This document shows positions 5,828 to 38,199 of a DNA stretch of 64,000 nt, piece after piece. Location of the stretch: contig NZ_CP110678.1 in NCBI RefSeq assembly GCF_026167545.1, positions 2,841,501-2,905,500 of the forward strand, read 5' to 3'. The notes beneath the pieces were generated by a model. The model made no database searches and had not been told where the DNA came from. It was given only the letters and a program-made list of their open reading frames with translations. Position 1 is the stretch's first letter; every line of letters starts with the position of its first letter. This DNA is from Sphingomonas sp. S1-29 (GTDB taxonomy: Bacteria > Pseudomonadota > Alphaproteobacteria > Sphingomonadales > Sphingomonadaceae). The translations under genes and the position numbers were made by a program.

Positions 5828-5859
5828 ATGGGCGATGGTCGCTGGCGGTTGGCCGGCGG

Positions 5860-12627: not shown

Positions 12628-12629
12628 AG

Positions 12630-12713
12630 CCCTCTCCCCTCCGGGGAGAGGGTTGGGAGAGGGGCAGTGCGGAGGCGCCGCGGCTCCAGCCCCTCTCCCG
12701 GGAGGGGAGAGGG
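12630..12713. repeat. Palindromic intergenic repeat (CCCTCTCCC family) between nasC and nirD
   Basis: The spacer is built from inverted blocks: CCTCTCCCCTCCGGGGAGAGG on the left and CCCCTCTCCCGGGAGGGGAG on the right, with a GGAGGCGCCGCGGCTCC-like core between. Each arm folds on itself and the arms can pair with each other. Repeats of this look occur in other spacers here (63192-63215). As RNA it could slow decay or partly terminate between nirD and nasC; that is inference. Confidence 0.75.
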
Positions 12714-12730
12714 AGAAGACGAACGCGCCC

Positions 12731-13072
12731 TCACGCCGCCGCCTGCATCGTGCTTGCCCGGCAGATCAGCACCCGCCCGCCGCTCAGCTTCACCGGGATC
12801 ACCGGTGTACACCCCTTGTCCTCACCCAGCGCTTCGCCGGTCGCCAGCGCGATCCGCCAATTGTGGAGCGGGCAGGCGACCGCGCCGCCATGGACGATCC
12901 CCTGGCTCAGCCGCCCGCCCTTGTGCGGGCAGCGATCGGCCAGCGCGAAGACGCGGCCGTCGCCGGTGCGAAAGACCGCGATGTCGTCGCCGCCTTCGAC
13001 CTGCACCGTGCGGCTGCCGCGCACGGGGATTTCATCGGCCCAGCCGATGTCGAGCCATTCACCGGTCAACAT
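12731..13072 (-). CDS. nirD: Nitrite reductase (NADH) small subunit, Rieske type
   Basis: The 113-residue protein is a NirD-like Rieske fold. Unlike enterobacterial NirD, which lacks cluster ligands, it has all four canonical ligands: C48 and H50 in RCPHKGG, C67 and H70 in CPLHNW. It therefore probably binds a [2Fe-2S] cluster and passes electrons within the NirBD complex. It is followed by nasC and preceded by nirB in the same direction, with a repeat in each spacer. The ATG at 13072 has GAGGATC just upstream. Confidence 0.93.
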   Translation of the reverse strand: MLTGEWLDIGWADEIPVRGSRTVQVEGGDDIAVFRTGDGRVFALADRCPHKGGRLSQGIVHGGAVACPLHNWRIALATGEALGEDKGCTPVIPVKLSGGRVLICRASTMQAAA

Positions 13073-13089
13073 GGTCGATCCTCCTGAAA

Positions 13090-13172
13090 TCCGTTCGCTT
13101 CGAGCGAAGTCGAGAAGCGCTGGCGGGGTGGTGGCGGCTCAAAGCGTGTCTCGACTTCGCTCGACACGAACG
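13090..13172. repeat. Inverted repeat between nirB and nirD
   Basis: The left arm CGTTCGCTTCGAGCGAAGTC and the right arm GACTTCGCTCGACACGAACG are nearly complementary over about 25 bases and flank a loop of roughly 25 bases. The sequence belongs to the CGTTCG-type sphingomonad repeats, also seen at 57640-57723. It sits inside the nitrate operon, so it would be transcribed. Confidence 0.75.
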
Positions 13173-13184
13173 GGGGAGCGGCGG

Positions 13185-15698: not shown

Positions 15699-16936
15699 CA
15701 GATCCGCACCCCGGCAACGGTGGTCCAGCGCGCACGCCAGCGCGGCTTGACCAGCGTCAGTCCGGCAAGCGCGATCAGCGACAGCGCGGCGAAGATCAGG
15801 AAGCCCGGCTGGAAGCTGCCGGTCCATTGCTTGGCAAGGCCCAGCGACGAAGCGAGGTAGAAGCCGCCGACCCCGCCCGCCATGCCGACCAGCCCGGTCA
15901 TCACCCCAATCTCGGCAGCGAAACGCTGCGGCACCAGCTGGAACACCGCGCCGTTGCCTGCGCCCAGTGCGAGCATCGCCAGCACGAACAACGCCAGCGC
16001 GGCATCGACCCGGCTGGCCGCGCCGACTCCCGCCAGCGCTACCGCGGCGACCGCGAACACCACCGACAGCGTCTTGACCCCGCCGATCCGGTCGGCGAGC
16101 GCGCCGCCCATCGGCCGCACCATCGATCCGGCGAACACGCAGCCCGCGGTGCAATAGCCCGCCAGCACGGTATCGAGCCCGAACCGGTCGGTGAAATAGA
16201 TCGGCAGCGACGCCGCCAGCCCGACGAACCCGCCGAAGGTGACCGCGTAAAACCCCATCAGCGACCAGGCATCGGCTTGCTTGAGCGGTTCGAGATATTC
16301 GGACAGGCGCTTGGGGGCAGGGGCACCCGGCGCGTCCTTGGCCAGCGCCAGATAGACGATCAGCACCAGCGTCAGCGGGATGCAGGCGAGCCCGAGCACC
16401 GCGTTCCAGCCGAACATCTTGGCCAGCGTCGGCGCGAACAGGGCGGCGAGCACCGTCCCCGAATTGCCCATTCCGGCAAGCCCCATCGCTTTGCCCTGAT
16501 GTTCGGGCGGGTACCAGCGGCTGGCGAGCGGCAGCGCGATCGCGAAGCTCGCCCCGGCAAAGCCCAGGATCACCCCGAGCGCCAGTGTGCCGGCAAAGCT
16601 GTTCACCCCCAGTGCCCAGGCGCTGAACAACCCGCCGATGACGATGATCTGGCCGATCGCCCCCGACCGCTTCGGCCCGATCCGGTCGACCAGCAGCCCG
16701 TTGACGACGCGGAGCGCCGCGCCGGCGAGCGTCGGCACCGCGACCATGAGCCCCTTTTGCGCGGGCGTCAGCGCCAGCGCCAGGGCGATGTCGGGGGCGA
16801 GCGGGCCGAGCAGCACCCACACCATGAACGCGAAATCGAAATACAGGAACGCTGCGATCAGCGTCGGCTTGTGGCCGCTGTCCCAAAAGCCGCGAGTCGG
16901 TTCGCTCGGTTCGTCATGCCAGAAGGTCGTTGCCAT
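15698..16936 (-). CDS. MFS nitrate/nitrite transporter (NarK/NasA family)
   Basis: This 412-residue, twelve-helix major-facilitator protein has the nitrate-porter signatures: FDFAFMVWVLLGPL in helix 1, the loop RIGPKRSGAIGQ, GFAGASFAIALPLASRWYP, GLAGMGNSGT (nitrate signature of helix 5), and GMAGGVGGFYL (second signature, helix 11). The start is ATG 16936 (MATTFW), with GGGGG upstream; a TTG nine codons earlier is less likely. It is the first gene after the regulated leader, so uptake, nitrite reduction and nitrate reduction are switched together. There is no domain fusion. Confidence 0.93.
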   Translation of the reverse strand: MATTFWHDEPSEPTRGFWDSGHKPTLIAAFLYFDFAFMVWVLLGPLAPDIALALALTPAQKGLMVAVPTLAGAALRVVNGLLVDRIGPKRSGAIGQIIVIGGLFSAWALGVNSFAGTLALGVILGFAGASFAIALPLASRWYPPEHQGKAMGLAGMGNSGTVLAALFAPTLAKMFGWNAVLGLACIPLTLVLIVYLALAKDAPGAPAPKRLSEYLEPLKQADAWSLMGFYAVTFGGFVGLAASLPIYFTDRFGLDTVLAGYCTAGCVFAGSMVRPMGGALADRIGGVKTLSVVFAVAAVALAGVGAASRVDAALALFVLAMLALGAGNGAVFQLVPQRFAAEIGVMTGLVGMAGGVGGFYLASSLGLAKQWTGSFQPGFLIFAALSLIALAGLTLVKPRWRARWTTVAGVRI

Positions 16937-16960
16937 GGTCGTGCCCCCATCTGCGATGGA

Positions 16961-17009
16961 CAAAGAAAAAGCCGCCCCGACGGCGACCTTGCGGGCGCAT
17001 CGGGGCGGC
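16961..17009 (-). terminator. Intrinsic terminator (attenuator) in the nitrate operon leader
   Basis: On the minus strand GCCGCCCCGA (17009-17000) pairs perfectly over 10 bases with TCGGGGCGGC (16980-16971), with a 19-base loop, followed at once by TTTTTCTTT. It lies 25 bases before the transporter start and inside the untranslated leader, where it would abort transcription unless bypassed. Together with the two-hairpin element upstream it forms a classic attenuation site. Confidence 0.88.
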
Positions 17010-17051
17010 TTCGTTGCCTGTGGACGACCATCCGGCCATCCGACGCGGTTC

Positions 17052-17104
17052 GGTCCCCTCGTTGGAACCTTGCGCGGTTATCTCGTGCCGGACTTCCTTG
17101 TCCG
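17052..17104 (-). promoter_or_regulatory. Two-hairpin ANTAR (NasT) RNA target in the nitrate leader
   Basis: Hairpin P1 (17104-17089) is CGGAC, hexaloop AAGGAA, GTCCG. Hairpin P2 (17069-17052) is GGTTCC, hexaloop AACGAG, GGGACC, with one U-G pair. Both loops have A at position 1 and G at position 4, the known recognition rule for ANTAR regulators such as NasT. They are 19 bases apart and end 42 bases before the attenuator. NasT released from NasS in the presence of nitrate would bind here and let polymerase pass. The spacing to the terminator is longer than in many examples, so the exact antitermination geometry is uncertain. Confidence 0.85.
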
Positions 17105-17166
17105 ACGCGGGGAAGATGACCGATTCGCAGGCGCGACGCAAGCGTCGTTTCGCAATCGCAGCATGA

Positions 17167-18381
17167 TCAGGGCAATGCCTTCAGATAGCCCGGAATATCG
17201 TCGGGATCGAAGGCGCGGTGATCGAAGAACGGGTCGCGCCCCAGGATCAGCCGCCCCTGCGTCGACCCCGCCGCGACTCCGGTGCCGCCGATCGCGCCTT
17301 CGATCTTCGAGCTGGCCCCGGGCAGCGGTGCGCCCGATCCGGCGAGCGCGGCGCGATAGACATCGGGCCGGAACACGCCTTGCGCGGTCTCCGCCTCCGC
17401 CGCCGAAAACGGCGTGCCGTCCCATCGGGTCATTTGCGAATAGAGCCACGCCGCCTGGCTGCGCCACGGGAAGTTCGCCGCCTCGCGATATTGGAACATG
17501 AAATCGGGGACGTGGACCGGCTCGGCCCCCTGCACCAGTCGAACCCGATCGCCGATCGCGCGCGCGATCGGGTCGACCGGCGCTGCGAGATATTCGGGGC
17601 GCGCAAGGATCGCGGCGCTTTCGGCCTGGCTGTCGGCATCGACGAAGTGCGCGGCGGCGGCGTGCAGCGCGCGGATCAGCCGCGCGACGGTGTCGCCGCG
17701 CTGCGCCAGCGTGTCGGCGGTCATCGCTAGCACCTTCTCCACCCCGCGCCGCCAGATCTGCGCGGTGACCAGCGCGATCCGCCCGACTCCCCGATCGACC
17801 GCCACGCTGTTCCACGGTTCGCCGACACAGATGCCGTCGATCTCGCCCGCCGCCAGTGCGTCGGCGGCGAAGCTGGGGCTGATCGTCACGATCTCGATAT
17901 CGACATCGGGCCGGATACCGACCGCCGCGAGCCAATAGCGCAGCATATAATTATGGCTCGAATAGCGATGCACCACGCCGAAGCGCAGCCGCTCGCCCGC
18001 AGCGGCGCGCGCCAGCGCGAGCGTCTTGAGCCGCGCGCCGAGCACCACCGGATCGCCGAGCGAATCCCCATCGAGCACTTGGTCGGCGAGCGGCAGCGCC
18101 AGCGTGATCGCATTGCCGTTGAGCCCCAACACGAACGGCACCGCCATCGCCACCGCCGGCCGCCCGCGCCCCAGCGCGGTCGCCAGCGCAAGCGGCGCGA
18201 CCATGTGCGCGGCATCGGTATGCCCGTACAGCAGCCGGTCGCGTACCGTCGCCCAACTCATGTCGCGCACCAGCTCGATCTCGATCCCCTCGGCCTTGGC
18301 GAACCCTTGCTCGCGCGCGAGGATCGGCAGCGCGGCATCGACCAGTGGCAGGAAGCCGATTCGAACCCGGTCGAGCGCCAT
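17167..18381 (-). CDS. nasS: Nitrate/nitrite sensor protein NasS (NrtA/CmpA-like, cytoplasmic)
   Basis: The 404-residue protein is a periplasmic-binding-protein fold of the NrtA/CmpA family without a signal peptide, as expected for NasS. It shows RIGFLPLVDAALPILAREQGF at the N-terminus, MSWATVRDRLLYGHTDAAHMVAPL, and the ligand-lobe segment GEIDGICVGEPWNSVAV. In Azotobacter and Paracoccus, NasS binds nitrate or nitrite and holds the antiterminator NasT inactive until then. The ATG shares a base with the nasT stop (TGATG); a GTG directly before it (18384) could also serve. It is co-transcribed with nasT and lies just upstream of the regulated leader. Confidence 0.92.
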   Translation of the reverse strand: MALDRVRIGFLPLVDAALPILAREQGFAKAEGIEIELVRDMSWATVRDRLLYGHTDAAHMVAPLALATALGRGRPAVAMAVPFVLGLNGNAITLALPLADQVLDGDSLGDPVVLGARLKTLALARAAAGERLRFGVVHRYSSHNYMLRYWLAAVGIRPDVDIEIVTISPSFAADALAAGEIDGICVGEPWNSVAVDRGVGRIALVTAQIWRRGVEKVLAMTADTLAQRGDTVARLIRALHAAAAHFVDADSQAESAAILARPEYLAAPVDPIARAIGDRVRLVQGAEPVHVPDFMFQYREAANFPWRSQAAWLYSQMTRWDGTPFSAAEAETAQGVFRPDVYRAALAGSGAPLPGASSKIEGAIGGTGVAAGSTQGRLILGRDPFFDHRAFDPDDIPGYLKALP

Positions 18382-18959
18382 CACATATCCCCCATCAACG
18401 CGTCGCTGGTGATGATCGCGTCGGCGATCTCGGCGATCCGGCGGTTCGATCGCATCGCCTGCGCGCGCAGCAAGCCATAGGCCGCGGGCTCGTCGATGCC
18501 GCGCCGTTTCATCAGGATCGCCTTGGCACGATCGATCGTGGTGCGATCGGCGAGCGCGCTCCTGGCTTCGTGCAACTCGGCCTGGAGCCGCGCAAATGCC
18601 TGGAAGCGACGGATCGCCAGGTCGAGCACGGGCTTGATCCGCTGCTTGGCCAGCCCGTCGACGATATAGGCCGACACCCCGGCATCGACCGCGGCGGCGG
18701 TCGATTCGGCATCGCTTTGATCGACGAACATCGCGATCGGCCGGTCTAGCGCGCGCGACACCGCGAAAAATTCCTCGAGCACGTCGCGGCTAGGGTTTTC
18801 GAGGTTGATCAACACCACTTCGGGCGCCGCCGCCTCGAGCTGCGCCACCAGCCGCCCGCCGCTGTCGATGATCACCAGATCGTCGAGCCCCGCCTCGCGC
18901 AGGCCATCCGAGATGATCGCGGCGCGCGTGGTGCTGGTGTCGATGATCGCGATCCGCAT
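18381..18959 (-). CDS. nasT: ANTAR-domain antiterminator NasT
   Basis: The 192-residue regulator has an N-terminal receiver-like domain (1-115) and a C-terminal ANTAR RNA-binding domain (about 130-192: ADRTTIDRAKAILMKRRGIDEPAAYGLLRAQAMRSNRRIAEIADAII). The receiver is atypical: where related NasT proteins have VVLID, this one has VVLIN, so the expected phosphoacceptor is asparagine (N52). That agrees with control by NasS binding rather than phosphorylation. Its RNA target can be seen 1.3 kb downstream, before the transporter gene. It is first of the nasT-nasS pair; the promoter should lie just above 18959. Confidence 0.93.
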   Translation of the reverse strand: MRIAIIDTSTTRAAIISDGLREAGLDDLVIIDSGGRLVAQLEAAAPEVVLINLENPSRDVLEEFFAVSRALDRPIAMFVDQSDAESTAAAVDAGVSAYIVDGLAKQRIKPVLDLAIRRFQAFARLQAELHEARSALADRTTIDRAKAILMKRRGIDEPAAYGLLRAQAMRSNRRIAEIADAIITSDALMGDM

Positions 18960-21173: not shown

Positions 21174-21712
21174 TGACGCTTGCCGCAAACGCAGCTCGCT
21201 CGCTCCTGCACCTGAGCAGCCCTTCACTCCTCGCGCCAAATTCTCGTTTCAGAATCCTTCCTTAGGAAAGCGGAGAGCGCACATCGCGATCGCAACGCGC
21301 GGTGGCGATGCCGCATGGGAACACACGGCTGAGAATGCTCCGCATCCGGGGGGCGTTTTCGCATCGACCTTTCGCCTCGGCACGGCAGTTGCCGGGCTTT
21401 CAGGGAAAATCGACCGCAAAGCTCTTTCTTCGCACAAGCACTCAAGCGGCAAACTTCTGATCTACAGTAAAACTACTATACCGTACTAATACTAGATCAA
21501 TTACGGCGAGCGAGATTATGAAAGGTCGCAGTGTTCAACAATTAACTTGAGATTATTCATCGCGAGACACAATGCATAAACTTAAATGATCCATAAGTGG
21601 CAAGCCAGCAAAAGGAGGCTATCTGTTTCGGATGCCAGCTTGAACGTGGCAATAAGTGACGATGCTTCGACTAGTTCGTCTGTTGCGTCTGTCTAGTCAA
21701 AAGGATCGCAAA
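21174..21712. other. Long AT-richer intergenic region upstream of the pilus operon
   Basis: About 540 bases without a supportable gene. The second half is noticeably richer in A and T than the surroundings (for example around 21460-21600), as expected for a promoter/regulatory region of a surface-structure operon. No clear sigma-factor motif or terminator could be assigned. Confidence 0.5.
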
Positions 21713-22228
21713 GTGAATATTGTAAAACTTATCAACCTGCGCACCGCGGGGGCGACTGCCCTGGCCGGCGCAGCGATCTTCGCACAACCGGCGATGGCGC
21801 AGACCGCTGGCTCGAACCTCGGTGCTTCGGCCGAAGTAACCGCCAATTGCGCGGTCACCTCGACGGCTATCGACTTCGGCAATGTCGACGTAACCACCGG
21901 CGCGGCGGTGCTCGGAACGGGTGGTATATCGGTCGTCTGCACCAACGGTACTGCGTGGGCGGCGTCGGCCGATGTCGGTACCGGCGCGGCCGCTACGCTT
22001 GCGGTCCGTCAACTGTCCGATGGCGCCAACACGTTGAACTATGCGCTCTTCACCGAGGCAACCCGTACCACGATCTGGGGAGATGGCACCACCACGACGT
22101 CGACGATCGACGACATCGGCACCGGAGTCGCGCAGGACAAGATTATTTATGGCAGCATCGCCGCAGCGCAAACCGGAGCCGTGGCAGGTAGCTATGCCGA
22201 CACGGTCGCCGTGACCGTCACGTATTGA
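21713..22228 (+). CDS. Spore coat protein U domain pilin subunit (Csu-type)
   Basis: The 171-residue secreted protein has a signal peptide (LRTAGATALAGAAIFAQPAMAQ) and one SCPU domain with two cysteines (NCAVTSTAI and VVCTNGTAW), ending in the family's typical YADTVAVTVTY. Such proteins are the major subunits of archaic chaperone-usher pili (CsuA/B of Acinetobacter). The start is GTG 21713 with AAAGGA upstream; an earlier ATG (21656) would add a basic leader. It is followed directly by chaperone, usher and a second SCPU gene, so it is the first gene of a four-gene operon. Confidence 0.9.
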   Translation: MNIVKLINLRTAGATALAGAAIFAQPAMAQTAGSNLGASAEVTANCAVTSTAIDFGNVDVTTGAAVLGTGGISVVCTNGTAWAASADVGTGAAATLAVRQLSDGANTLNYALFTEATRTTIWGDGTTTTSTIDDIGTGVAQDKIIYGSIAAAQTGAVAGSYADTVAVTVTY

Positions 22229-22968
22229 TTTCCAAGCCGGTGATAGCACGAAGTGTACATCAAGGGACTGGTCGCCGCTTGGCGGCCAGTCTGTTGGCGG
22301 TCTCGATCGTCGTTCCGGCGGTGGCCGGTTCGTTCCAAGTCAATCCAGTTCAGATCGTTCTTCAGCCGGGTAAGACGATCACATCGGTGACGATCCGCAA
22401 TTCGGAGCGTGAGAAGGTTGCGGTGCAGGTGCTCACGTACCGCTGGACGCAGGTGGGGGGCGATGACGTTTACACGCCTACGGAAGACCTGATCGTTTCG
22501 CCGCCAATCTTCGCGATTCCGGCGAGCGGCAAGCAGCTGGTTCGCGTGGGGTTGCGGCGTCGCATGCCGGGCGCCGCCTATCGCGTGATCTTCGAGGAAA
22601 TCCCGCGTCCGGCGAAAGAGAACGTCATTCAGGTCGCGCTACGGCTGAACCTACCTTTGTATGTGTTGGCGGCACGGGAGGGGGTACCGATTTTACGCTG
22701 GAGCGCGACGCGGGACGCTGCGGGGGACCTCATCCTCGAAGCGCGCAACGACGGTACCCGTCATGCCCAGATCACAGCCATCGCGCTGGTCGATCCCGCG
22801 GGGCGCAAGACCATGCTTACGACAGCCATGGGCGTGGTCCTGCCCGCCAGCATGCGTCGTTGGAAGATCGGCCGGCATCCAGAGCTGGCGGCGGGGGCCG
22901 ATCTTCAACTCAGTGTTCGGAGTTCAAGTGGCGAAGATAGGATCATGGCCAAACTGGCGAATCGCTAG
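22225..22968 (+). CDS. Periplasmic pilus assembly chaperone (FimC/CsuC family)
   Basis: The product (up to 247 residues) has a signal peptide ending near VVPAVAG and two immunoglobulin-like domains. The N-terminal domain shows FQVNPVQIVLQPGKTITSVTIRNSE and the subunit-binding G1 segment IVSPPIFAIPASGKQLVRVGLRR; the C-terminal domain follows NLPLYVLAAREG. It donates a strand to SCPU subunits and delivers them to the usher. The start overlaps the subunit stop as TTGA; a GTG at 22240 is an alternative. The usher start lies inside its 3' end (41-base overlap). Confidence 0.9.
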   Translation: MISKPVIARSVHQGTGRRLAASLLAVSIVVPAVAGSFQVNPVQIVLQPGKTITSVTIRNSEREKVAVQVLTYRWTQVGGDDVYTPTEDLIVSPPIFAIPASGKQLVRVGLRRRMPGAAYRVIFEEIPRPAKENVIQVALRLNLPLYVLAAREGVPILRWSATRDAAGDLILEARNDGTRHAQITAIALVDPAGRKTMLTTAMGVVLPASMRRWKIGRHPELAAGADLQLSVRSSSGEDRIMAKLANR

Positions 22969-25276
22969 CCTGGCGGTGGCCGGATTTTGGTCGGTCAGCG
23001 GTGCCGGTGCTGCCGCCGTCACCACTGCCGTATTGCCGACCGGGGAGACGATTGTTGCCAGCCAACTCGAACTCTTTGGCGTGACGCTGAACGGTATCGA
23101 TCAGGGCGAGCCCTTGTGGGTCCTGCGCAATGCCGCCGGGGAGATATTTCTGCCGCAATCGGCTTTCGAAGCATGGCGGCTAAACCCGGCTACGGCGGCC
23201 ACGGTACAGTTCGAAGGCGGGGTCTATCGCGCGATCAACGAGGTACCGGGGGTAACGGTCGAGGTCAAAGCGGGCGACCAGACGCTCCACTTGACGGTGG
23301 CCGCCACCAGCTTCGATGCAGCGCGTATCGGGCTGTCGGCCAATGATCCGGGGCCGATGACGGCAAGCGGCTTCGGTGGGTTTTTGAACTATGAGCTGGT
23401 GGGCCAAATTGCCGACGGCCGCACCGACGCCAACGGCCTGTTCGAACTCGGCATATTTTCGGCTTCAGGGACAGGCTCGACCACCGTGATCGGTCGCGCC
23501 GAGGGCAGGCCGAACTTCGTTCGGCTCGAGAGCAATTGGACCATCGACGATCCTGAAAACCGGCGCTCGCTGCGTTTCGGCGACAGCATAAGTCACGGCG
23601 GGGTAGGGGCGTCACCCTTGCGCTTTGGCGGCTTCCAACTCGCCACCAATTTCTCGACGCAACCAGGCTTCGTCTCGATGGCGCTGCCAACCATGAGCGG
23701 CAGTGCGGCCCTGCCTTCGATCGTCGACGTCTATGTCAACGACCTGTTGCAAACCAGCCGAGCAATCAGTCCCGGTCCGTTCGAATTTACCAGCATGCCC
23801 GTGATCGCGGGCAGTGGCGATATCCGTCTGGTCGTCCGCGACGCGCTTGGGCGCAACACCGTCATTACCCAGTCCTATTATGCGGCACCGCACCTGCTGG
23901 GGCAGGGTGTTCACGATTATTCCTATGAACTCGGCCTGCTTCGCGAAGGCTTCGCGGTCGAAAGCAACCATTATGGTTCGGCGATGCTTTCAGGCACGCA
24001 TCGCTATGGTGCCACCGACACGACAACGCTTCAGGCGCATGTCGAGGCCACGCAGCGTGTCCAGGCGGGCAGCGTCGGGGTCGACCTGCTATGGCCCGGT
24101 ATCGGTGTTTTCTCGGCAGCTGCGGCTGCAAGTCGGTCGAACGCCGCAACCGGCGGACTGCTTGCGATCGGGTTTGAACGGCGGACCCCCTTCATGTCGC
24201 TCGGCGCAACGGGCGAAATCACCACCTCGGGATACGCGCCGATCGGTGCGATCGCTGACCGGTCCCACGCTGGCGCCAACGCGCGGCTATTTGTTAGCGC
24301 CCCAACCGGCTTCGGATCGGTCGCTGCTTCCTTGTTGGCGCGCCGGCGCTCGGGCTTGCCCGATGTCGCGTTCCTAAACGCCAGCGCTTCGGTGCGACTG
24401 GCGAACCTTGGGTCGCTTAATCTCAGCGGGCGGCAAAGCTTAACGGCGCCGCGGGACATCGCGGTCCAGGCATTTCTCACGATCCCGCTTGGACAACGTA
24501 CGAGCGCGAGCGCGGCGATACAGCTGGCGCAGGGGGACATGGGCGCTACCGCGAACCTTCAACGCAACCTCCCCGCGGGCAACGGAATCGGCTATCAGCT
24601 GTCGGCCACCACCGGGGCGTTCGATCGCTTTAGCGGCGCGCTGATGCTGCAAAGCGATATCGGCAATCTCGACGGCGAGGTGACTTGGAGCGATCGTAGA
24701 ACGGGGGTGCGGCTGAGCCTATCCGGCTCGATCGCCGCGGTCGACGGCCAAGTTTTTGCATCGCGCAAAATCCGACAGAGCTTCGCCGCGGTTCACGTAG
24801 GAAAATATCCGGGCGTTCGTGTGTATGCCGATAACCAGTTGATTGGCCGGACCAACCGGGCAGGCGTCGTCATCGTGCCTCGGCTTCGTCCCTTCGAACC
24901 CAACCGTTTATCGATCAACGTCGAGGACCTTCCGCTCGACGCCATCGTGGCCGGGGGCGAGCAGCAGATCCGTCCCTTCGATCGCAGCGGAGTAACGGTG
25001 CGCTTTGCTGCAACAGAATCGCGAGGCGGGATGCTCCGCATCGTCCTCGATGATGGCGCGCCGCTTCCAGCAGGCACTCCGATCCGCCTGAACGGGGCGG
25101 CGGAGGAGTTCGTCAGTGCGGCGGGCGGCGACCTCTATCTCACGGGCCTTCAATTGAGTAACATAGCCGTGGCGGATCTGGGGGAGGCGCAATGTAGCTT
25201 CGCTTTCCGGTTCGCGGCCAGCACCGAGGCCATACCGCAGCTTGGGCAGTTCACGTGCAGCGCGGCCGCCTCGTGA
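22928..25276 (+). CDS. Outer-membrane usher protein (FimD/CsuD family)
   Basis: The 782-residue protein starts at GTG 22928 (GGAG six bases upstream) with a signal peptide ending near SGAGAAA. An N-terminal usher domain (TIVASQLELFGVTLNGIDQG) is followed by the barrel with its plug: YELVGQIADGRTDANGLFELGIFS, VDVYVNDLLQTSRAISPGPF, and IRLVVRDALGRNTVITQSYY, the signature between barrel strands. C-terminal domains include the VRVYADNQLIGRTNRAGVVIVPRL block. It forms the secretion pore and polymerisation platform for the pilus. Length is normal for archaic ushers. Confidence 0.92.
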   Translation: MAKIGSWPNWRIASLAVAGFWSVSGAGAAAVTTAVLPTGETIVASQLELFGVTLNGIDQGEPLWVLRNAAGEIFLPQSAFEAWRLNPATAATVQFEGGVYRAINEVPGVTVEVKAGDQTLHLTVAATSFDAARIGLSANDPGPMTASGFGGFLNYELVGQIADGRTDANGLFELGIFSASGTGSTTVIGRAEGRPNFVRLESNWTIDDPENRRSLRFGDSISHGGVGASPLRFGGFQLATNFSTQPGFVSMALPTMSGSAALPSIVDVYVNDLLQTSRAISPGPFEFTSMPVIAGSGDIRLVVRDALGRNTVITQSYYAAPHLLGQGVHDYSYELGLLREGFAVESNHYGSAMLSGTHRYGATDTTTLQAHVEATQRVQAGSVGVDLLWPGIGVFSAAAAASRSNAATGGLLAIGFERRTPFMSLGATGEITTSGYAPIGAIADRSHAGANARLFVSAPTGFGSVAASLLARRRSGLPDVAFLNASASVRLANLGSLNLSGRQSLTAPRDIAVQAFLTIPLGQRTSASAAIQLAQGDMGATANLQRNLPAGNGIGYQLSATTGAFDRFSGALMLQSDIGNLDGEVTWSDRRTGVRLSLSGSIAAVDGQVFASRKIRQSFAAVHVGKYPGVRVYADNQLIGRTNRAGVVIVPRLRPFEPNRLSINVEDLPLDAIVAGGEQQIRPFDRSGVTVRFAATESRGGMLRIVLDDGAPLPAGTPIRLNGAAEEFVSAAGGDLYLTGLQLSNIAVADLGEAQCSFAFRFAASTEAIPQLGQFTCSAAAS

Positions 25277-25728
25277 TGATCGCTCGTTCCAACCGGCATG
25301 GGTGGCTCGCCTTGCTCACCCTATGGGGTGCGACGCTAATGCCGTTGCCAGCCTTGGCGGCGAATTGCTCGGTAAGCAGCGAGAGCCTGAATTTCGGGCA
25401 ATACGACCCCTTCAGCAGCGCTCCGTCCGACGCCGCTTCGACGATCACGGTCAGCTGCGACGCGGAAACAGCCTTTGAGATTGCAGTCACGCCCGGCGCC
25501 GGTTCCTATGCCGCGCGGACGATGACCCATGGGGACGACGTAATGGCCTATAATCTTTACATCGATCCCCAGCGCACCGCGGTTTGGGGGGATGGCACGG
25601 GCAGCACCAGTGCCGTCAGCGCGATCGCGTCCCGCGGCGATTTCACGATTTACGGCCGCGCGCCCGCGGGGCAGAATTTGCGGCCGGGGCTCTATACCGA
25701 CACGCTTTCAATTACGGTGACCTATTAG
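25276..25728 (+). CDS. Spore coat protein U domain protein, second pilus subunit
   Basis: This 150-residue SCPU protein has a signal peptide (WLALLTLWGATLMPLPALAANC) and the conserved cysteines in ANCSVSSESLNFG and VSCDAETAF. The middle matches the first subunit in layout (NLYIDPQRTAVWGDGTGST) and the end is again YTDTLSITVTY. The ATG shares one base with the usher stop. In Csu systems the gene after the usher encodes the tip adhesin, which is longer with two domains; here only one SCPU domain is present, so whether it is the tip or a second minor subunit is unclear. Confidence 0.87.
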   Translation: MIARSNRHGWLALLTLWGATLMPLPALAANCSVSSESLNFGQYDPFSSAPSDAASTITVSCDAETAFEIAVTPGAGSYAARTMTHGDDVMAYNLYIDPQRTAVWGDGTGSTSAVSAIASRGDFTIYGRAPAGQNLRPGLYTDTLSITVTY

Positions 25729-25736
25729 GCATTCGT

Positions 25737-26192
25737 TCACGGCAGGTCCGAAGCCTTTGCCGGCGAAGCATCGGGCGGCACCGGTTCCGCGCAAAAAGCG
25801 TCCATCATGCGCAGTAGCGCTTCAATGCTCCGCGGCGAGCCACGAAGATTTCGCGCCAACTGCGCTACGATGGCGTTTTTGACGAAGCTGGAGGGGCCCG
25901 CATACCCCAAGGACCATGCACTGAAACGACGCTGGGGCACCATTTTTTGTTCGAGAATGCCGATGTCCGTGTGGCGGACGTCACGGCAAATACTTGCCAT
26001 GATGTCTTCCACCCTGTGCTGCTCGCCCTCTAAAACCTGGGCGAACCTGCCCCCGGCCAGGATCAGGCAGCCGGTCACACCAACGTTGCGATTTCGGATG
26101 CGGCTGACATCGACAATCGCTTCGATCACCCCCTCGGCTTGCTCGGGGGCAATGACCGATCGGCTGGCATAGATAAGCCTAAATGTCGGCAT
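25737..26192 (-). CDS. BLUF-domain blue-light photoreceptor, short type
   Basis: The 151-residue protein consists of an N-terminal BLUF domain (about 1-95) and a helical tail. The flavin-switch residues are present: the tyrosine in RLIYASRS, the asparagine in RNVGVTGCLI, the glutamine in GRFAQVLEG, and a tryptophan in FSAWSLGY. It should bind FAD non-covalently and respond to blue light by a hydrogen-bond shift. There is no output domain, so it must act on a partner. It ends the apparent operon kinase-regulator-BLUF; the gap to the regulator is 75 bases, or 33 if the upstream GTG (26234) is used. Confidence 0.9.
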   Translation of the reverse strand: MPTFRLIYASRSVIAPEQAEGVIEAIVDVSRIRNRNVGVTGCLILAGGRFAQVLEGEQHRVEDIMASICRDVRHTDIGILEQKMVPQRRFSAWSLGYAGPSSFVKNAIVAQLARNLRGSPRSIEALLRMMDAFCAEPVPPDASPAKASDLP

Positions 26193-26267
26193 CGCGCGCC
26201 CAAACTTGCGAACCGCTGCATCGGATATGTTCACGGCGAGTTGCTATCGCCATGCGGTGAGTGTTGG

Positions 26268-26948
26268 TCACAACTTCGTAACCCCCGCCAAGATCGCTAG
26301 GCGGACGACTTCGGCGACCGACCCCGCCCCGAGGCGCTTCATCAGGTTGCCGCGATGCATTTCGACCGTGCGGACGCTGATGCCGAGTTGTTCGGCGACG
26401 CTCTTATTTGAAAGGCCGCCTGCGAGCCCTTGCAACAGCTCTCGCTCCCGCGGCGTCAGCCCGGCTACCCGCACTAGCGCGTTTTCACGCTCGGCGAGGT
26501 CCGACATGCGCGCGGCGAGGGCGGCAGATAACAAGTCGAGCGTTTCCATCAGCGCTGCATCGGTGAAGGGCTTTTCGAGGAAGTCGCTGGCGCCCCGCTT
26601 CATCGCCTTCACCGCGACTTCCAAGTCGCCATGGCCGCTGATCACTGCGACCGGAAAGCGATGGACGCGGTCCCCCAGCGCCTCGATCACTGCAATCCCG
26701 TCCATGCCGGGCATTCTCAGGTCGAGCAAAACGCATCCGGAGGTGAGGCCGTCGACCCGATCGAGAAAATCGCGGCCCGAAGCGAAGCTCAGCGTGTCGA
26801 ATCCCGATGCCTTGAGCGCGAAGCCGAGCGCACGACGAACCATCTGATCATCGTCGACGATATACGCTGTCCGCAGCAGCGCGGTTTGGCGGGCGACGGC
26901 GGCGCCCCCCTCTTGCCCAGGCGGCGGTGCACGGCGGTCAATTTCCAT
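26268..26948 (-). CDS. FixJ-family response regulator
   Basis: The 226-residue regulator has a receiver domain with DDD at 32-34, phosphoacceptor D76 (VLLDLRMPGMDG), ISGHGDLEVAVKAMKRGA and FLEKPF, which is the FixJ/TtrR pattern. A C-terminal LuxR helix-turn-helix (LTPRERELLQGLAGGLSNKSVAEQLGISVRTVEMHR) covers about 160-220. It overlaps the kinase gene by 11 bases (start ATG 26948), so the kinase is its cognate partner. The first 25 residues form an unusual proline/glycine-rich leader. Targets are unknown; the BLUF gene lies directly downstream. Confidence 0.92.
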   Translation of the reverse strand: MEIDRRAPPPGQEGGAAVARQTALLRTAYIVDDDQMVRRALGFALKASGFDTLSFASGRDFLDRVDGLTSGCVLLDLRMPGMDGIAVIEALGDRVHRFPVAVISGHGDLEVAVKAMKRGASDFLEKPFTDAALMETLDLLSAALAARMSDLAERENALVRVAGLTPRERELLQGLAGGLSNKSVAEQLGISVRTVEMHRGNLMKRLGAGSVAEVVRLAILAGVTKL

Positions 26949-28500
26949 ATGCGCCGCCGGATACGTGGCTTGCAGCCGGGACGGTGAAGCAAAATTCCGA
27001 ACCCGACTGGTCGCTGCGCTCAAGCCAGATCCGACCGCTTTGCGCTTCGATCATCGTCCGCGAAATCGCGAGGCCCAGCCCGGTGCCCCCGTCCTTTGAC
27101 GAATCCATCCAGTGGAAGATGTTCTCGGCTGCCTCTAGCGATAGTCCGTGGCCCGTATCGGTGACGTGGATTTCAACATCGACCTGCTTGCGGGTCGCAT
27201 CGACGGTGACGACGCCGCCTGCCGTTCCGGCAATCGCGTCGCAGGCATTGCGCAACAAATTGATAGCGACTTGCTGAATTTGGAGACGATCGGCGAAGAC
27301 CATCAAATCCTCCGGGGTTCGATCCTCGATAATGGCCGCGGGGCAGCCGCTGGCGCGAACCAGCTTCACGCATTCCGCGATAGCAGCTTTGAGGTTGAAC
27401 CGGACTTTGGGTGTTTCGCCTCGCTTCGTCAGTTCCCGCACGTTTCGGATAATGTGACCCGCGCGCTGAGCCGCCTCTTCAATACCACGCAAAGCCTCCA
27501 TCAGCGCGTCGCGCCCTGGCTGGGTGGGGTCGACCAGATGGGCACTCGCGCCGGCATAGTTCGCGATGGCCGCGAGCGGTTGGTTGAGTTCGTGTGCCAG
27601 TGTGGCCGCCATCATGCCCATCGCGTTCACTCGCGAGGCGTGCGCCACCTCTCCCTGTAGCAGGGACAATCGATTAGCGGCCAGGCGCTCGGCGGTGACG
27701 TCATAGCCTTCGACGAAAACCCCGGTGATGGTGCCGTCGGGTCCCCGCACCGGCTGATACATGAAATTCAGATATTTCGTGTCGGGGGTGGCGGCAGACG
27801 GTGTCGATAATTGTATCGGCACGCCATAGCCTAAAAACGGTTCGCCGGTCTCCAACACCCTATCTAGCAGCGCGATAAAGCCTTGCGTGGCAACCTCTGG
27901 CAACACGTCGCAGAGCCTGTGCCCAACCAGATCCCCGCGCCCCACCAAACGCTTGTACGAAGCATTGGCGAACGTGATCCGATGATCTCTCCCCTCAAGC
28001 GATACCACAAAGCCTGGGGCCAAGTCGTAGAGAGCATTGATCTGGCGACGTTGTTCGGCCAGTCGGTCGATCTGGTCATTGAGTTCGACGAACCCTAGGA
28101 AATGCTGCCGGACCTTGCCCTGCTCGTCTACCAGCGGGCTAAGAAAAATTCTCGCCAGATACCCGTCGTCGTTGGCGCGTCGACACCGACACTCCCAGGT
28201 GCCGGCGAGGCTGCTGTCCAACGCATCCTCGATCATCGAGATGGCGTGTGGATCGGTTACTGGTTCAAGCAGGACGGCAACCCCCCTGCCAATGATTTCG
28301 GCACGGCTGAAACCCGTAAGCGATAAAAAACTGTCGTTAGCTAGCAGGACCGGGTGGCCATCGATTTGCGCATCGACGATGACCATGGGCATCGGCGTGC
28401 TCGCGGCCGCTACGAAAAAGGGGCCCAGCTCTGTCTGGAACTGATCAACACAGGCTTCGACGGCGGATCGTGCAGCGCTAACGCCGGTCGGTCGGACCAT
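26938..28500 (-). CDS. Soluble PAS/PAS histidine kinase with cysteine-less LOV-like domain
   Basis: The 520-residue kinase has no membrane helices. PAS1 (about 25-140) follows LOV domains closely (LANDSFLSLTGFSRAEIIGR, TDP motif, GTWECRCRRANDDGYLARIFLSPLVDE), but the photoactive GRNC motif is GRGV (residues 71-74), so no flavin-cysteinyl adduct can form. PAS2 (about 155-270) ends in VFVEGYDVTAER. Then come a FixL-like HisKA with LAHELNQPLAAIANY (H303), N-box NLLRNACDAI and G-boxes DTGHGL and GGTGLGLAISRTMI. It pairs with the FixJ-type regulator and a BLUF gene. The input may still be redox or light through a flavin radical, or another ligand; sequence cannot decide. Confidence 0.9.
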   Translation of the reverse strand: MVRPTGVSAARSAVEACVDQFQTELGPFFVAAASTPMPMVIVDAQIDGHPVLLANDSFLSLTGFSRAEIIGRGVAVLLEPVTDPHAISMIEDALDSSLAGTWECRCRRANDDGYLARIFLSPLVDEQGKVRQHFLGFVELNDQIDRLAEQRRQINALYDLAPGFVVSLEGRDHRITFANASYKRLVGRGDLVGHRLCDVLPEVATQGFIALLDRVLETGEPFLGYGVPIQLSTPSAATPDTKYLNFMYQPVRGPDGTITGVFVEGYDVTAERLAANRLSLLQGEVAHASRVNAMGMMAATLAHELNQPLAAIANYAGASAHLVDPTQPGRDALMEALRGIEEAAQRAGHIIRNVRELTKRGETPKVRFNLKAAIAECVKLVRASGCPAAIIEDRTPEDLMVFADRLQIQQVAINLLRNACDAIAGTAGGVVTVDATRKQVDVEIHVTDTGHGLSLEAAENIFHWMDSSKDGGTGLGLAISRTMIEAQSGRIWLERSDQSGSEFCFTVPAASHVSGGAYGN

Positions 28501-28886
28501 TATTCCACCATTCCGATTGCCGATGGATATGCCGTCCGTCGCGCATACCTCCGCTGTTTCCCTAGACGCTTTCGTTCAAAACCGAAAGGTCGTCATTGCG
28601 CCGGAGTTAACGCCGACGGCCGGAACACAGGCGGCGCGAAACGTTGAAGGAAGCAGGCGCTCCGGCGCCACGGCGTACCAAAAGCGATCCCCACCAAAGA
28701 CCTGCGCGGCAGCCATGGTGCAGCCCAACCGCAAACATGAATTGCATAACCTCGACCGCGCCCGCCGGGCCATTTTGTTATCCCAAAGTGATGAGCGAAG
28801 CGCTGGGCGCCGCCGCCAGGATCACCGTAATACTGCTGTCGCTAAAGACCGGCAGTTCGCGTTACTTGTCATTCCGAAGGGTCGTT
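28501..28886. other. Divergent promoter region between the kinase and the PHP gene
   Basis: These 386 bases separate the divergent starts of the sensor kinase operon and the PHP gene. Open frames crossing it show no recognisable protein. It should hold both promoters, but I found no convincing -35/-10 or EcfG-type pair. Confidence 0.45.
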
Positions 28887-30302
28887 ATGCATCGTCAGGC
28901 AGTATTTTTCTTTACGGCGTTAGCGGCCTGTGCAGTCCCGGCAGCGGGGCAGGAGGTGCCGCAGCGGCGCTGGCTGGCGGGCGATCATCATGTCCACAGC
29001 ATCTATAGCGCCAGATATACCCCGGACCCGGCACGACCCGATCAGCCGCCTCCGCCGATCGTCGGCGGCGATTCATCGCATACGATCGAGATGAACGCCC
29101 AGATGGCACGGCGGCACGGGCTGAACTGGATGGTGTCGACCGACCATGGCGGGCCGAACCATGCCGAGCTCAACCATGCCCGCGCCTGGCCCGATGTGGT
29201 CGCGGCGCGGCGTGCGGTGCCGGGGCTGGTGCTGTTCTACGGCATGGAGTTCGACGTGCCCGGCGGTGAACATGCCAGCCTGATCCTGCCGATCGGCGCC
29301 GCCGAGCGAGACGCGCTTCGCGGCATCGAGCGCGGCTATGGCAAGCGCGAGCTCTTTCCCGCCGATCCGGCGCGCAACACCAAGCCGCGGATGATCGAGG
29401 CGCTGCGCTATATGGCGGGGCTCGCCGATCCGCCGGTGGTGATCGGCAACCACCCCTCGCGCACGGCCAAGGGGCTTGGCATCTGGGGCCAGCACGCGCC
29501 CGAAGAATATCGCGCCTGGCACGCCGCCGCGCCGCGCGTCACGATCGGCATGGAGGGGGCGCCGGGGCATCAGGCGGCGCGGCCCAAGCCTGGGCTCGAC
29601 ACCGCGCACGGGTCGCGCGGGCTATATGGCGGCTATCCGACGATGGGCGGGTTCGACCAGATGGTCGCGACGCTTGGCGGTGGCTGGGACGCGCTGCTGG
29701 GACAGGGATTGCACTGGACAATCACCGCCACGTCGGACTCGCACGGCCATTGGCGCGAGGGCGGGGCCGATTTCTGGCCGGGCGAATATGCCAAGACCTG
29801 GGTGTTCGCCGCGCCGACTTCGCCCGACATTCTGGACGGGCTGCGCGCGGGCCGCGTGTTCGTCGCGACCGGCGGGCTGATCGAGCAACTCGACGTGACC
29901 GCCGCCGCCTCCGGTCGCAAGGCTGCAATGGGCGACACGCTGGCGGTGAAGCAGGGCGACGAAATGATCGTGACCATCCGCTTCCGGCCCGCCGGCAGCG
30001 CCAATGCGGCGGGCGCGGTGCCCAGGGTCGACCATGTCGATCTGATCGCGGGCGATGTCACCCTTGGCGTGGGCGACCGCAACCCCAGCGCGAAAATGGT
30101 TCGCCGCTTCACTGCGCGCGACTGGCGGCGCGACGGCAAGGATCTGGTGGTCGAGCATCGGATGCCCGCCTCGGCAGCGGGCGGCTATCTGCGGGTGCGT
30201 GGCACCAGCACGCCCGAGGGGGAGCCCGTCCCCGATGTCGCCGGCGAGGACCCGTGGCAGGACCTGTGGTTCTATTCGAACCCGGTCTATTGGAACGGCT
30301 GA
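28887..30302 (+). CDS. Secreted PHP-domain metal-dependent phosphoesterase-like protein
   Basis: The 471-residue protein begins with a signal peptide (FFFTALAACAVPAAGQE). The PHP metal-binding motif is GDHHVHS at about 32-38, with further ligands expected in STDHGGPNH, YGMEFDVPGGEHAS, GNHPSR and ATSDSHGHW, all in the right order. The C-terminal 130 residues are a beta-rich domain (IVTIRFRPAGSANAAG...VDHVDLIAGDV) often attached to secreted PHP proteins. The activity is probably a phosphatase or phosphodiesterase on an extracytoplasmic substrate. The start has GAAGG upstream. It lies 68 bases before an ECF sigma gene in the same direction. Confidence 0.87.
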   Translation: MHRQAVFFFTALAACAVPAAGQEVPQRRWLAGDHHVHSIYSARYTPDPARPDQPPPPIVGGDSSHTIEMNAQMARRHGLNWMVSTDHGGPNHAELNHARAWPDVVAARRAVPGLVLFYGMEFDVPGGEHASLILPIGAAERDALRGIERGYGKRELFPADPARNTKPRMIEALRYMAGLADPPVVIGNHPSRTAKGLGIWGQHAPEEYRAWHAAAPRVTIGMEGAPGHQAARPKPGLDTAHGSRGLYGGYPTMGGFDQMVATLGGGWDALLGQGLHWTITATSDSHGHWREGGADFWPGEYAKTWVFAAPTSPDILDGLRAGRVFVATGGLIEQLDVTAAASGRKAAMGDTLAVKQGDEMIVTIRFRPAGSANAAGAVPRVDHVDLIAGDVTLGVGDRNPSAKMVRRFTARDWRRDGKDLVVEHRMPASAAGGYLRVRGTSTPEGEPVPDVAGEDPWQDLWFYSNPVYWNG

Positions 30303-35855: not shown

Positions 35856-36067
35856 CACGAACCAAGCAAAGCAACATGTTTGAAGCTGGATCAACGCCAA
35901 TCAGCGGGCTCGGCCAAGAATCTTCCTCGTTCCCGCAGCGTTTCTCGCAACGGTATTCGCGCCCGATCGCGTTCGAAGGGTAAAGATGCGGTATCGACAT
36001 CGCCGGTGGGATGTGGTGCGTTTCGAGCACGCACTCGACACAGTAGCGAGGCGTCGGGAGAGGTTTG

Positions 36068-36961
36068 ATGGGGCAGACGGCCAGAGCACTGGCGATACCG
36101 ACGATCGATCGCCAAGGCCTTCATCGGCTCGAAACGCTGTTTATCGTGCCGGATATATACCGGCGCGACGATGTCGCTGAGCGTCAGGCCAAGTTGGCGC
36201 GCATCGTGTCAAACGAGATAGTCCCGCGGCTATTGAAGCTCCATGCCGAAGTCGTGCCAGCCGCGCCGCCAATCAAGGTAGTTATCGAAGCCTTGGTGCC
36301 TACCAGCGCCGATATCACCGGCCTTGCCCACATCGTGCTTGGTAGCGATCTCGAGGCCGCCGCCGCCTATGTGCTGATGATGCGCGAGCGCGGGCTTTCG
36401 ATGGAGACGTTGTTCGTCGAGCTGCTCGAGCCGGCCGCGCGTTTGCTTGGTGAGATGTGGGATCGCGATGATTGCGACTTCATCGACGTGACGCTGGGGG
36501 TGGCTCGCCTGCAAAAGCTGCTTGCGATCTTCAACGAGACCCATGTTCTCCCAGGGCTGGATACCCATCGTACCGTATTGATGGCGATGACGCCGGGGGA
36601 CCAGCACTTCTTCGGCATCACGATGGTCGAGCGGTTTTTGACAGCTGCCGGATGGCAGGTACGTACCGAGCTTGAAGGCACTTACGAGGACATCGCAAAT
36701 GTCGCGAAGCAAAACTGGTTCGCCGTCGTCGGCTTGACTGCGGGATCGGAACGCCAGCTCGAAAGCATGCGCACAACGATTGCGCAGATACGACGGGAGT
36801 CCCGCAACCAAGCGATCGGCGTCATGGTGGGCGGGCCGATGTTTACCGCAAACCCTGAACTGGCTCGCGACGTAGGCGCAGACGACACCGCACCCAACGC
36901 ACCTGCAGCCGTGTTGGTAGCCCAGAAACTGTTCGATCTGGGGCATCGGCAACGGGCCTAA
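36068..36961 (+). CDS. AerR/PpaA-type cobalamin-binding (SCHIC) regulator
   Basis: This 297-residue soluble protein has a helical B12-binding cap (about 85-160: ELLEPAARLLGEMWDRDDCDFIDVTLGVARLQKLL, the CDFxDVTxG pattern of PpaA/AerR) and a Rossmann-like B12/SCHIC domain. The latter has the base-off motif D178-x-H180-x-x-G183 in PGDQHFFG, then VVGLTAGSERQLESM and VMVGGPMF. AerR in Rhodobacter capsulatus is a cobalamin-dependent antirepressor of CrtJ/PpsR; AppA carries the same domain fused to BLUF. There is no DNA-binding domain, so it must act on another protein. The start ATG 36068 follows GGGAGAGG. tspO is divergent and a BLUF gene follows 750 bases downstream. Confidence 0.82.
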   Translation: MGQTARALAIPTIDRQGLHRLETLFIVPDIYRRDDVAERQAKLARIVSNEIVPRLLKLHAEVVPAAPPIKVVIEALVPTSADITGLAHIVLGSDLEAAAAYVLMMRERGLSMETLFVELLEPAARLLGEMWDRDDCDFIDVTLGVARLQKLLAIFNETHVLPGLDTHRTVLMAMTPGDQHFFGITMVERFLTAAGWQVRTELEGTYEDIANVAKQNWFAVVGLTAGSERQLESMRTTIAQIRRESRNQAIGVMVGGPMFTANPELARDVGADDTAPNAPAAVLVAQKLFDLGHRQRA

Positions 36962-37710: not shown

Positions 37711-38199
37711 ATGTTCGACGAATATGGTTTTCCAGGCGACGCTGACTTCGATTACGCCGCGCCTACGCTTTATACCTTTGTATACTGCAGTCGTGCCGCC
37801 GAAGGCGTCGATGATATGGAGGTCGATCGCATCATCGAATCGGCGCAGCGCTACAATCTCGCCAAAGGCATCACCGGAGTGCTGGTTTTCGGCAGCGGCG
37901 TCTTTTTCCAATGGATCGAGGGACCGCCCGCCGAAGTGCAAAAGCTGATAGCAAACCTGCATGGCGATCCGCGCCATTACGACATCGTCCCGCTGGATCG
38001 GAGTGAAGAAAAGCGCGAGCGCTTGTATCCAAATTGGGAGATGGAACGGGTCGAAGCCGACGACATCCGCACGGTGTTGCAGGACGCACTTGAAAGCGCA
38101 GAGGACGAGAACAACGTTGCGGCGCTAAGACGTATTCTCGAACATCTCGGTTCCGGTTCGCTCGATTCGCTGGGAAGGTCGTTAGGTCCTCGGTCCTGA
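37711..38199 (+). CDS. BLUF-domain blue-light photoreceptor, second copy
   Basis: The 162-residue protein has a BLUF domain at about 18-112 preceded by an acidic 17-residue leader and followed by a helical tail (ESAEDENNVAALRRILEHL). Switch residues are the tyrosine in TFVYCSRA, the asparagine in QRYNLAKGITGVLVF, the glutamine in VFFQWIEGP and the tryptophan in YPNWEME. It differs greatly from the first BLUF protein (25737-26192), so the two are not a recent duplication. There is no output domain. The nearest genes are an AerR/PpaA-like regulator and tspO, making it a candidate light input to a tetrapyrrole-related pathway. Confidence 0.9.
   Translation: MFDEYGFPGDADFDYAAPTLYTFVYCSRAAEGVDDMEVDRIIESAQRYNLAKGITGVLVFGSGVFFQWIEGPPAEVQKLIANLHGDPRHYDIVPLDRSEEKRERLYPNWEMERVEADDIRTVLQDALESAEDENNVAALRRILEHLGSGSLDSLGRSLGPRS

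Follow-up and report, generated by a model that had tools for sequence, protein, structure and literature searches.

A FixL/FixJ-type operon with a short BLUF photoreceptor in Sphingomonas sp. S1-29: a possible blue-light input acting in trans

BLUF photoreceptors occur both fused to other domains and as stand-alone proteins, for which few partners have been proven. PapB–PapA is a pair of a BLUF protein and a cyclic di-GMP (c-di-GMP) enzyme; for most stand-alone BLUF proteins we know of no partner. According to a review, BLUF sensors are found within histidine kinases as well (PMC6798134), and in the survey of PMC4844311, whose text names PapB and a BLUF–EAL complex, short BLUF proteins form the majority class (64%). 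PixD is described as acting on the response-regulator-like protein PixE (PMC5899715). Here we analyze a locus in a stretch of 64,000 nucleotides (the window) of the 3.38-Mb single-contig genome of Sphingomonas sp. S1-29, in which the genes for a sensor histidine kinase, a FixJ-like response regulator and a short BLUF protein stand in a row on the minus strand. We propose, with a probability of roughly one half, that this operon encodes a FixL/FixJ-type pair with a separate blue-light input, and that the BLUF protein acts in trans to modulate FixJ signaling, through either FixJ or the kinase core. The features of the locus are as follows.

26938..28500, minus strand: soluble sensor histidine kinase of 520 amino acids, PAS1–PAS2–HisKA–HATPase_c (ATG at 28500, stop at 26938; Pfam).
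28078..28416, minus strand: PAS1, residues 29–141, LOV-like fold without the LOV flavin-site residues (AlphaFold, structure and residue comparison).
28279..28290, minus strand: GRGV, residues 71–74, where LOV domains have G-x-N-C (alignments).
27685..28053, minus strand: PAS2 (PAS_4), about residues 150–272 (Pfam).
27418..27621, minus strand: HisKA, residues 294–361, phospho-acceptor His303 (Pfam and residue check).
26971..27291, minus strand: HATPase_c, residues 404–510 (Pfam).
26268..26948, minus strand: FixJ-like response regulator of 226 amino acids, receiver (D76) and LuxR-type helix-turn-helix (ATG at 26948, stop at 26268; Pfam).
26193..26267, minus strand: 75-nt gap between the regulator and BLUF genes, where a PAS-GGDEF-EAL gene sits in genome G770.
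25737..26192, minus strand: short BLUF photoreceptor of 151 amino acids with two C-terminal helices (ATG at 26192, stop at 25737; Pfam).

The kinase gene overlaps the regulator gene by 11 nt and the BLUF gene follows 75 nt on, in the arrangement and at the positions given by an earlier, sequence-only reading of this DNA. An identical 11-nt overlap is present at locus L235 of genome G770, the nearest relative of the whole operon, which encodes a kinase 61% and a BLUF protein 59% identical to those of the window, in the order kinase, FixJ, PAS-GGDEF-EAL, BLUF. An in-frame GTG at 26234, upstream of the BLUF ATG, would as a start codon reduce the gap to the regulator to 33 nt. A scan of 25600–29000 returned one promoter-like site, on the plus strand (1.0 expected), and three terminator-like sites (3.4 expected), with neither kind in the regulator–BLUF gap, which does not in itself prove co-transcription; these scans were dropped as evidence because the numbers of sites were no higher than in shuffles. 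Upstream of the kinase gene, no conserved DNA was seen between the window and L235, the longest common stretch being only 10 bases.

The kinase (Pfam domains PAS_9/PAS, PAS_4, HisKA and HATPase_c) and the regulator (Response_reg and GerE/LuxR) have the features of a two-component pair, namely His303 and an ATPase domain in the former, D76, together with S104 and K126, in the latter, and coupled genes, as also in L235. The kinase core scores 163 bits against the FixL part of the LOV–FixL fusion 4gcz. Among NCBIfam models the regulator best matches FixJ (207.8 bits, under the equivalog cut-off of 255), and the kinase scores 191.8 bits against the FixL equivalog, short of its cut-off of 850.

The evidence for a tie between BLUF and such pairs is their linkage, scored where a FixJ gene lies within about 3 kb of a BLUF gene, with expected counts calculated from gene numbers and genome sizes. 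FixJ is within 3 kb of 9 of the 83 BLUF genes in 29 genomes (0.41 expected); when the window genome is left out, 8 of 79 are linked (0.395 expected, P 1e-8). At all nine linked loci (L006, L010, L043, L044, L045, L046, L047, L086, L087) a kinase gene lies within 4 kb, and these kinases have HisKA and HATPase_c in common while their sensor domains differ. Since this linkage is far above chance, the suggestion in the earlier reading that light input is delivered in trans by the BLUF protein stands as a sound proposal. A family-wide BLUF search listed 48 places, of which 30 had loci and 15 were taken with wide flanks. Among the 30 loci, FixJ and/or a kinase fall within 1.5-kb flanks in seven, the window included, and at an eighth, L207, both lie beyond these flanks. 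FixJ, BLUF and kinase genes are clustered in other genera (L242, L243, L244), and in L248 overlapping genes follow the order FixJ–kinase–BLUF, with no EAL gene. The order in L044 is BLUF–kinase–FixJ, and FixJ and BLUF are on opposite strands in L046 and L242–L244. L246 contains FixJ and BLUF with no kinase match in 14 kb, and in L222, taken only with narrow flanks, FixJ adjoins BLUF.

Plasmids also carry the combination. BLUF is matched by 26 plasmid records; five were examined, and in four of these a FixJ-type regulator lies no more than about 2.3 kb away, in two cases next to a PilZ-annotated gene. On the Sphingobium plasmids pMSHV and pEP1 (L255, L256), the regulator beside BLUF reads VLKD where the window regulator reads VDDD, an altered acidic pocket, and no kinase is annotated or matched by the window kinase within 4.5 kb, the plasmid gene table being incomplete. 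Both plasmids are typed as conjugative, and pEP1 has a PilZ gene between BLUF and the regulator.

The kinase family was followed in genome searches that scored limited first-look candidates per genome (five in the 295-genome kinase search), so that paralogues may be missed. Kinase orthologues above 330 bits are 40–61% identical. In 295 genus genomes, 11 kinase copies in nine genomes exceed 340 bits, the next match being at 239 bits, and 298 family genomes gave six further matches; on plasmids the window kinase has no match at 1e-60. A BLUF gene lies less than 2 kb from four of the 11 copies (G000, G043, G214, G243). Because the kinase occurs with a FixJ gene nearby and no BLUF in the stretch in several genomes (G858, G888, G597, G877; loci L236, L237, L239, L241), the kinase–FixJ pair is, to judge from gene content, the core, to which some members of the family add BLUF. 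The sparseness of this family (9 of 295 genus genomes), often with no BLUF nearby, would fit an accidental adjacency in the window genome. Such an accident is very improbable, given that, with the window set aside, 3 of 10 orthologue copies in other genus genomes have BLUF within 3 kb (0.04 expected) and that G770 has the same operon plus one gene.

The window BLUF protein matches PF04940 with 89.4 bits (cut-off 25; E 1.7e-25) and has a confident structure model (predicted local distance difference test, pLDDT, 90). From its residues it is likely a light sensor, as it retains Tyr8, Asn34 and Gln52, the photochemical residues, and Trp93. The β5 methionine is replaced by Leu95, a substitution common to a BLUF subgroup. 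This methionine is replaced in 12 of the 15 linked BLUFs (a set that leaves out L222 and the plasmid loci) and retained in those of G043, G214 and G161. The association of methionine loss with linkage gives a Fisher P of 1e-6 when five duplicate unlinked rows are included and relatives are taken as independent, and it reflects mostly one lineage. In a deduplicated tree of 99 BLUF rows, 6 label changes account for the 15 linked rows (14.2 in shuffles). Leu, Ile or Ala occurs in 23 rows of this tree, 12 of which are linked, and that label requires only 5 changes (20.9 in shuffles). A methionine-less group of 16 rows in this tree is linked in 11 cases, with support of 94/24 that is weak by one measure and a bootstrap that is unsettled; in an 88-row tree, nine linked rows lie inside a 23-row branch (93/89) together with 14 unlinked rows.

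Further BLUF genes were seen in passing. Another short BLUF gene of the window, belonging to a different BLUF branch, lies at 37711–38199 on the plus strand, 750 bp after a gene for a B12-binding protein (36065–36961; Pfam PF02310). A similar open reading frame (ORF; by eye) lies near FixJ and BLUF in L087. The G197 genome, with 11 BLUF matches, has tandem BLUFs, three in L103 (7869–9378) and two in L122 (4402–5321).

The kinase itself had been said to read like a LOV domain in PAS1, and this holds for the fold. The AlphaFold model of PAS1 (14 aligned sequences) is a PAS fold with a pLDDT of 80, its top Foldseek matches are the LOV domains 9vf7, 6ph3 and 6ph2, and VIA-align gives a tie between an aureochrome LOV domain (Z 18.4) and an EAG PAS domain (Z 19.1). 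EAG/ERG channel PAS domains are not known to bind flavin. The description fails for the chromophore site. Alignment bears out GRGV at residues 71–74 in place of the adduct-forming motif, so that PAS1 combines a PAS fold of LOV type with the absence of the GxNC cysteine. Only two of ten LOV-defining positions are kept, a Gly and a Leu; besides the cysteine, PAS1 is without the Asn, Arg, Phe, Gln, Asn, Asn and Gln common to LOV domains, and the equivalents of Asn94, Asn104 and Gln123 (YtvA numbering, PMC4682037) are Cys, Ala and Phe.

This condition is shared by the family. Fourteen PAS1 kinases were compared, namely those of the window, G160 (three), G043, G084, G319, G320, G081, G214, G770, G858, G888 and G819. 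Each keeps 0 to 4 of the ten LOV positions, and the adduct cysteine and the Asn/Asn/Gln flavin-contact set are found in none of the 14. A recent loss of the cysteine in the window kinase alone is ruled out because all 14 compared members are without it, and as all are alike, it was not lost recently beside a photoactive site. By comparison, a PAS1 search gave 53 places, of which 30 had loci that were compared; at least eight of ten LOV positions are present in 28 of these 30, the remaining two being the window and a frame in G004. The cysteine together with Asn/Asn/Gln is present in 27 of the 28 LOV-type loci of the window genome and related genomes, and one of the 27, L169, belongs to the window genome. 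L168 (G101) has proline at the adduct cysteine and the other nine tested LOV residues intact, and appears to be a better candidate than PAS1 for a natural cysteine-less LOV domain. Two PAS1-type domains outside the kinase family, in an HWE kinase of G160 (Pfam) and the HWE-like frame of G004 (by eye), keep two positions each. The HWE kinase with this flavin-less PAS1 type (L079, 10637–12018, G160) overlaps a short receiver-like ORF (by eye) and lies upstream of the window kinase's closest orthologue in the genus.

It had also been suggested that the kinase uses flavin photoreduction or redox, PAS1 binding flavin and signaling as cysteine-less LOV proteins do. Signaling by such proteins is documented in PMC4682037, and PAS1 does model as a LOV domain, with LOV structures at the top in Foldseek. 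However, the search for natural cysteine-less LOV domains described there demanded at least nine of the other 10 conserved residues, and PAS1 has 2 of the 10 positions checked, the cysteine counted among the ten. Many residues besides the cysteine are missing, the Asn/Asn/Gln equivalents are lost in all 14 kinases, and PAS1 matches equally well a channel domain of a kind not known to bind flavin; a flavin-based reaction in PAS1 is thus highly unlikely, and PAS1 as a photoactive or redox LOV domain was rejected on its 2 of 10 residues. At the level of sequence, PAS1 is not a photoreceptor: it is a PAS domain of LOV-like kind, but across the compared family members the flavin site has been lost.

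The implied connection between the missing cysteine and a BLUF partner is not borne out. No BLUF gene lies in the 16–20-kb stretches around 9 of the 14 PAS1 kinases (three of G160, and G084, G319, G320, G081, G858 and G888), nor around a tenth, that of G819, in a stretch ending at the contig end (8.7 kb); the other four, of the window, G043, G214 and G770, have one beside them. Conversely, the kinase of G243 is linked to BLUF yet is without PAS1. The same facts, the PAS1-less G243 kinase and the nine PAS1 kinases with no BLUF nearby, rule out PAS1 as a necessary docking site for BLUF.

We infer the following course of signaling. The BLUF protein, rather than PAS1, would absorb the light and would bind either FixJ or the kinase's HisKA/ATPase core, much as stand-alone BLUFs such as PixD act on their partners. 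PAS1 and PAS2 would respond to some other signal or mediate protein contacts, and light would thus be one of two inputs to the pair. The contact is placed at FixJ or the kinase core because, at linked loci, the sensor domains vary or are absent and FixJ, mostly with a FixL-type core, recurs. Gene order thus suggests these sites rather than PAS1, given the varied sensor domains, the PAS1-less G243 kinase and the kinase-less L246, pMSHV and pEP1. Alternatively, the pair may regulate the BLUF gene or merely be co-transcribed with it, BLUF being an output and not an input. This would suit the placing of linked BLUFs downstream, upstream or divergent of the pair and the occurrence of the core pair with no BLUF nearby (L236, L237, L239, L241). 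It is distinctly improbable, as linked genes overlap or lie close on one strand in the window, L235 and L248, and BLUF occurs beside kinases with dissimilar sensor domains, which suggests a tie that goes beyond regulation alone.

Several points weigh against BLUF as a light input to the pair. The 9 of 83 linked genes come from 29 genomes picked for a BLUF protein resembling that of the window (E ≤ 1e-15), so that the rate is not genus-wide, and as FixJ was the criterion for linkage, the argument is tilted toward FixJ. At class level, none of 19 BLUF places outside the window genome has a FixJ match within 1.5 kb, and three of these places are from the window's own family (two in G597, one in G365); one class-level locus, L182, has weak PAS-type matches to the window kinase. 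No BLUF lies in the stretches fetched for 7 of the 11 kinase orthologues in the 295 genus genomes, and none was detected anywhere in the G084 genome (90% complete). Leu95 stands where PixD has its presumed signal-relaying residue. In PixD, as reported in PMC5899715, changing this methionine to Ala abolished the light-induced conformational signal and kept the red shift, and cells with this change behaved as if PixD were locked in its signaling state. Finally, gene proximity does not show contact.

To the same side belong the c-di-GMP enzymes beside BLUF. In L235, the PAS-GGDEF-EAL and BLUF genes overlap by 4 nt, and a GGDEF-EAL probe is matched within 1.5 kb of BLUF in 12 of the 30 family-wide loci, so that a c-di-GMP enzyme is a commoner neighbor of BLUF than FixJ is in these loci. 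Beside linked BLUFs there are GAF-GGDEF-EAL genes in L043, L047 and L087 and a GAF-GGDEF gene in L046, and PilZ genes lie near BLUF in L045, L086 and L087. GGDEF/EAL genes also neighbor BLUF in L240 and L250, and a contig-wide BLUF scan gave one Methylobacterium locus (family by eye) with a GGDEF/EAL-type ORF upstream. In L087 (8053–13297), genes for a GAF-GGDEF-EAL protein, BLUF, a KaiC-type ATPase and a kinase stand in a row on one strand (Pfam). The strongest rival reading is accordingly that BLUF partners a c-di-GMP enzyme, PapB–PapA style: the ancestral operon would have been kinase–FixJ–GGDEF/EAL–BLUF, exactly the arrangement of L235, the enzyme gene would have been lost here, and the BLUF protein would act on another GGDEF/EAL protein in trans or be a leftover. 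The window genome offers candidates: at E ≤ 1e-20, the L235 enzyme has 14 matches there and the L087 probe 19. However, no GGDEF/EAL gene is present in the window operon, and the L235 enzyme has no clear orthologue in the window genome: the two best matches (41–42%) start at residue 186, past the PAS part, and a third covers residues 109–619 at 31%. Furthermore, L248 has FixJ–kinase–BLUF without such a gene, none is found by probe in L242–L244, and a gain of the enzyme gene in G770 is as possible as its loss in the window genome. This reading is possible, though we regard it as rather unlikely; BLUF, FixJ and c-di-GMP may also be combined in one circuit.

Channel PAS domains are regarded as protein-contact modules. 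A more far-reaching version of the blue-light input can be put forward, tentatively and as somewhat less likely still than a c-di-GMP partner: a Sphingomonadaceae subgroup of BLUF proteins without the signaling methionine would be devoted to FixJ-type regulators, binding the regulator itself and thereby serving pairs with unrelated kinase sensors; on Sphingobium plasmids, it would drive a FixJ-like regulator with an altered pocket and no adjacent kinase, and the PAS1 of the window would have turned into a protein-contact module.

Elsewhere in the window, chaperone-usher type genes (21656–25728, plus strand; PapD_N chaperone and SCPU subunit by Pfam, usher by eye) are convergent with the BLUF operon. 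These pilus genes are a natural idea for a target of the operon, and are claimed neither as such nor as its conserved companions because 26 related stretches show none: the four window proteins had no match at 1e-3 in 26 linked or kinase stretches (422 kb). A nitrate assimilation-like region (by eye) lies at 4122–18959 on the minus strand and includes an ANTAR response regulator (18384–18959; Pfam).

The recurrent neighborhood of BLUF and a FixL/FixJ pair supplies a specific partner that can be tested throughout a bacterial family, and the linked BLUFs raise the question of how BLUF signals without the β5 methionine. If the proposal is true, a two-component switch could be given light as a second input with its kinase unchanged, which would also interest designers of light-controlled gene expression.

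No published description of a BLUF–FixJ pair was found in the open-access literature searched, in agreement with the earlier reading, which knew of no described BLUF–kinase–FixJ system of this form. Among the closest counterparts is PixD–PixE of Synechocystis, in which a stand-alone BLUF acts in trans on a response-regulator-like protein (PMC5899715); the available text of that paper does not present PixE as a FixJ-type regulator that binds DNA and has a kinase of its own, and PixD has Met93 where the window BLUF has Leu. The PapB–PapA and BLUF–EAL pairs tie BLUF to c-di-GMP enzymes, as at L235, L240 and L250, whereas the window operon is without a GGDEF/EAL gene. FixL–FixJ resembles the window pair in its soluble PAS kinase, FixJ-like regulator and overlapping genes, but the window proteins score under the curated cut-offs (191.8 of 850 and 207.8 of 255). 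The LOV histidine kinases (Brucella LOV-HK, Erythrobacter EL346) likewise have a LOV-type fold at the kinase N terminus, with the difference that the PAS1 of the window has neither the adduct cysteine nor the flavin-contact residues. Natural cysteine-less LOV-like proteins (BAT-LOV; PMC4682037) share the missing cysteine, but in the search described there they had to keep nearly all other LOV residues, and PAS1 keeps two. The PAS domains of EAG/ERG channels (4llo, 5j7e) have a similar LOV-like PAS fold (root-mean-square deviation 1.1–1.2 over 108 residues); they are eukaryotic ion-channel domains, and the likeness is in fold only. For the rhodopsin–kinase operon of Sphingomonas AAP5, the authors propose a light sensor, which is a xanthorhodopsin and not a BLUF protein (PMC7762795). 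What is new in the window is thus the combination, and its parts, a trans-acting BLUF, a pair resembling FixL/FixJ and a LOV-shaped domain that lacks a flavin site, are each known.

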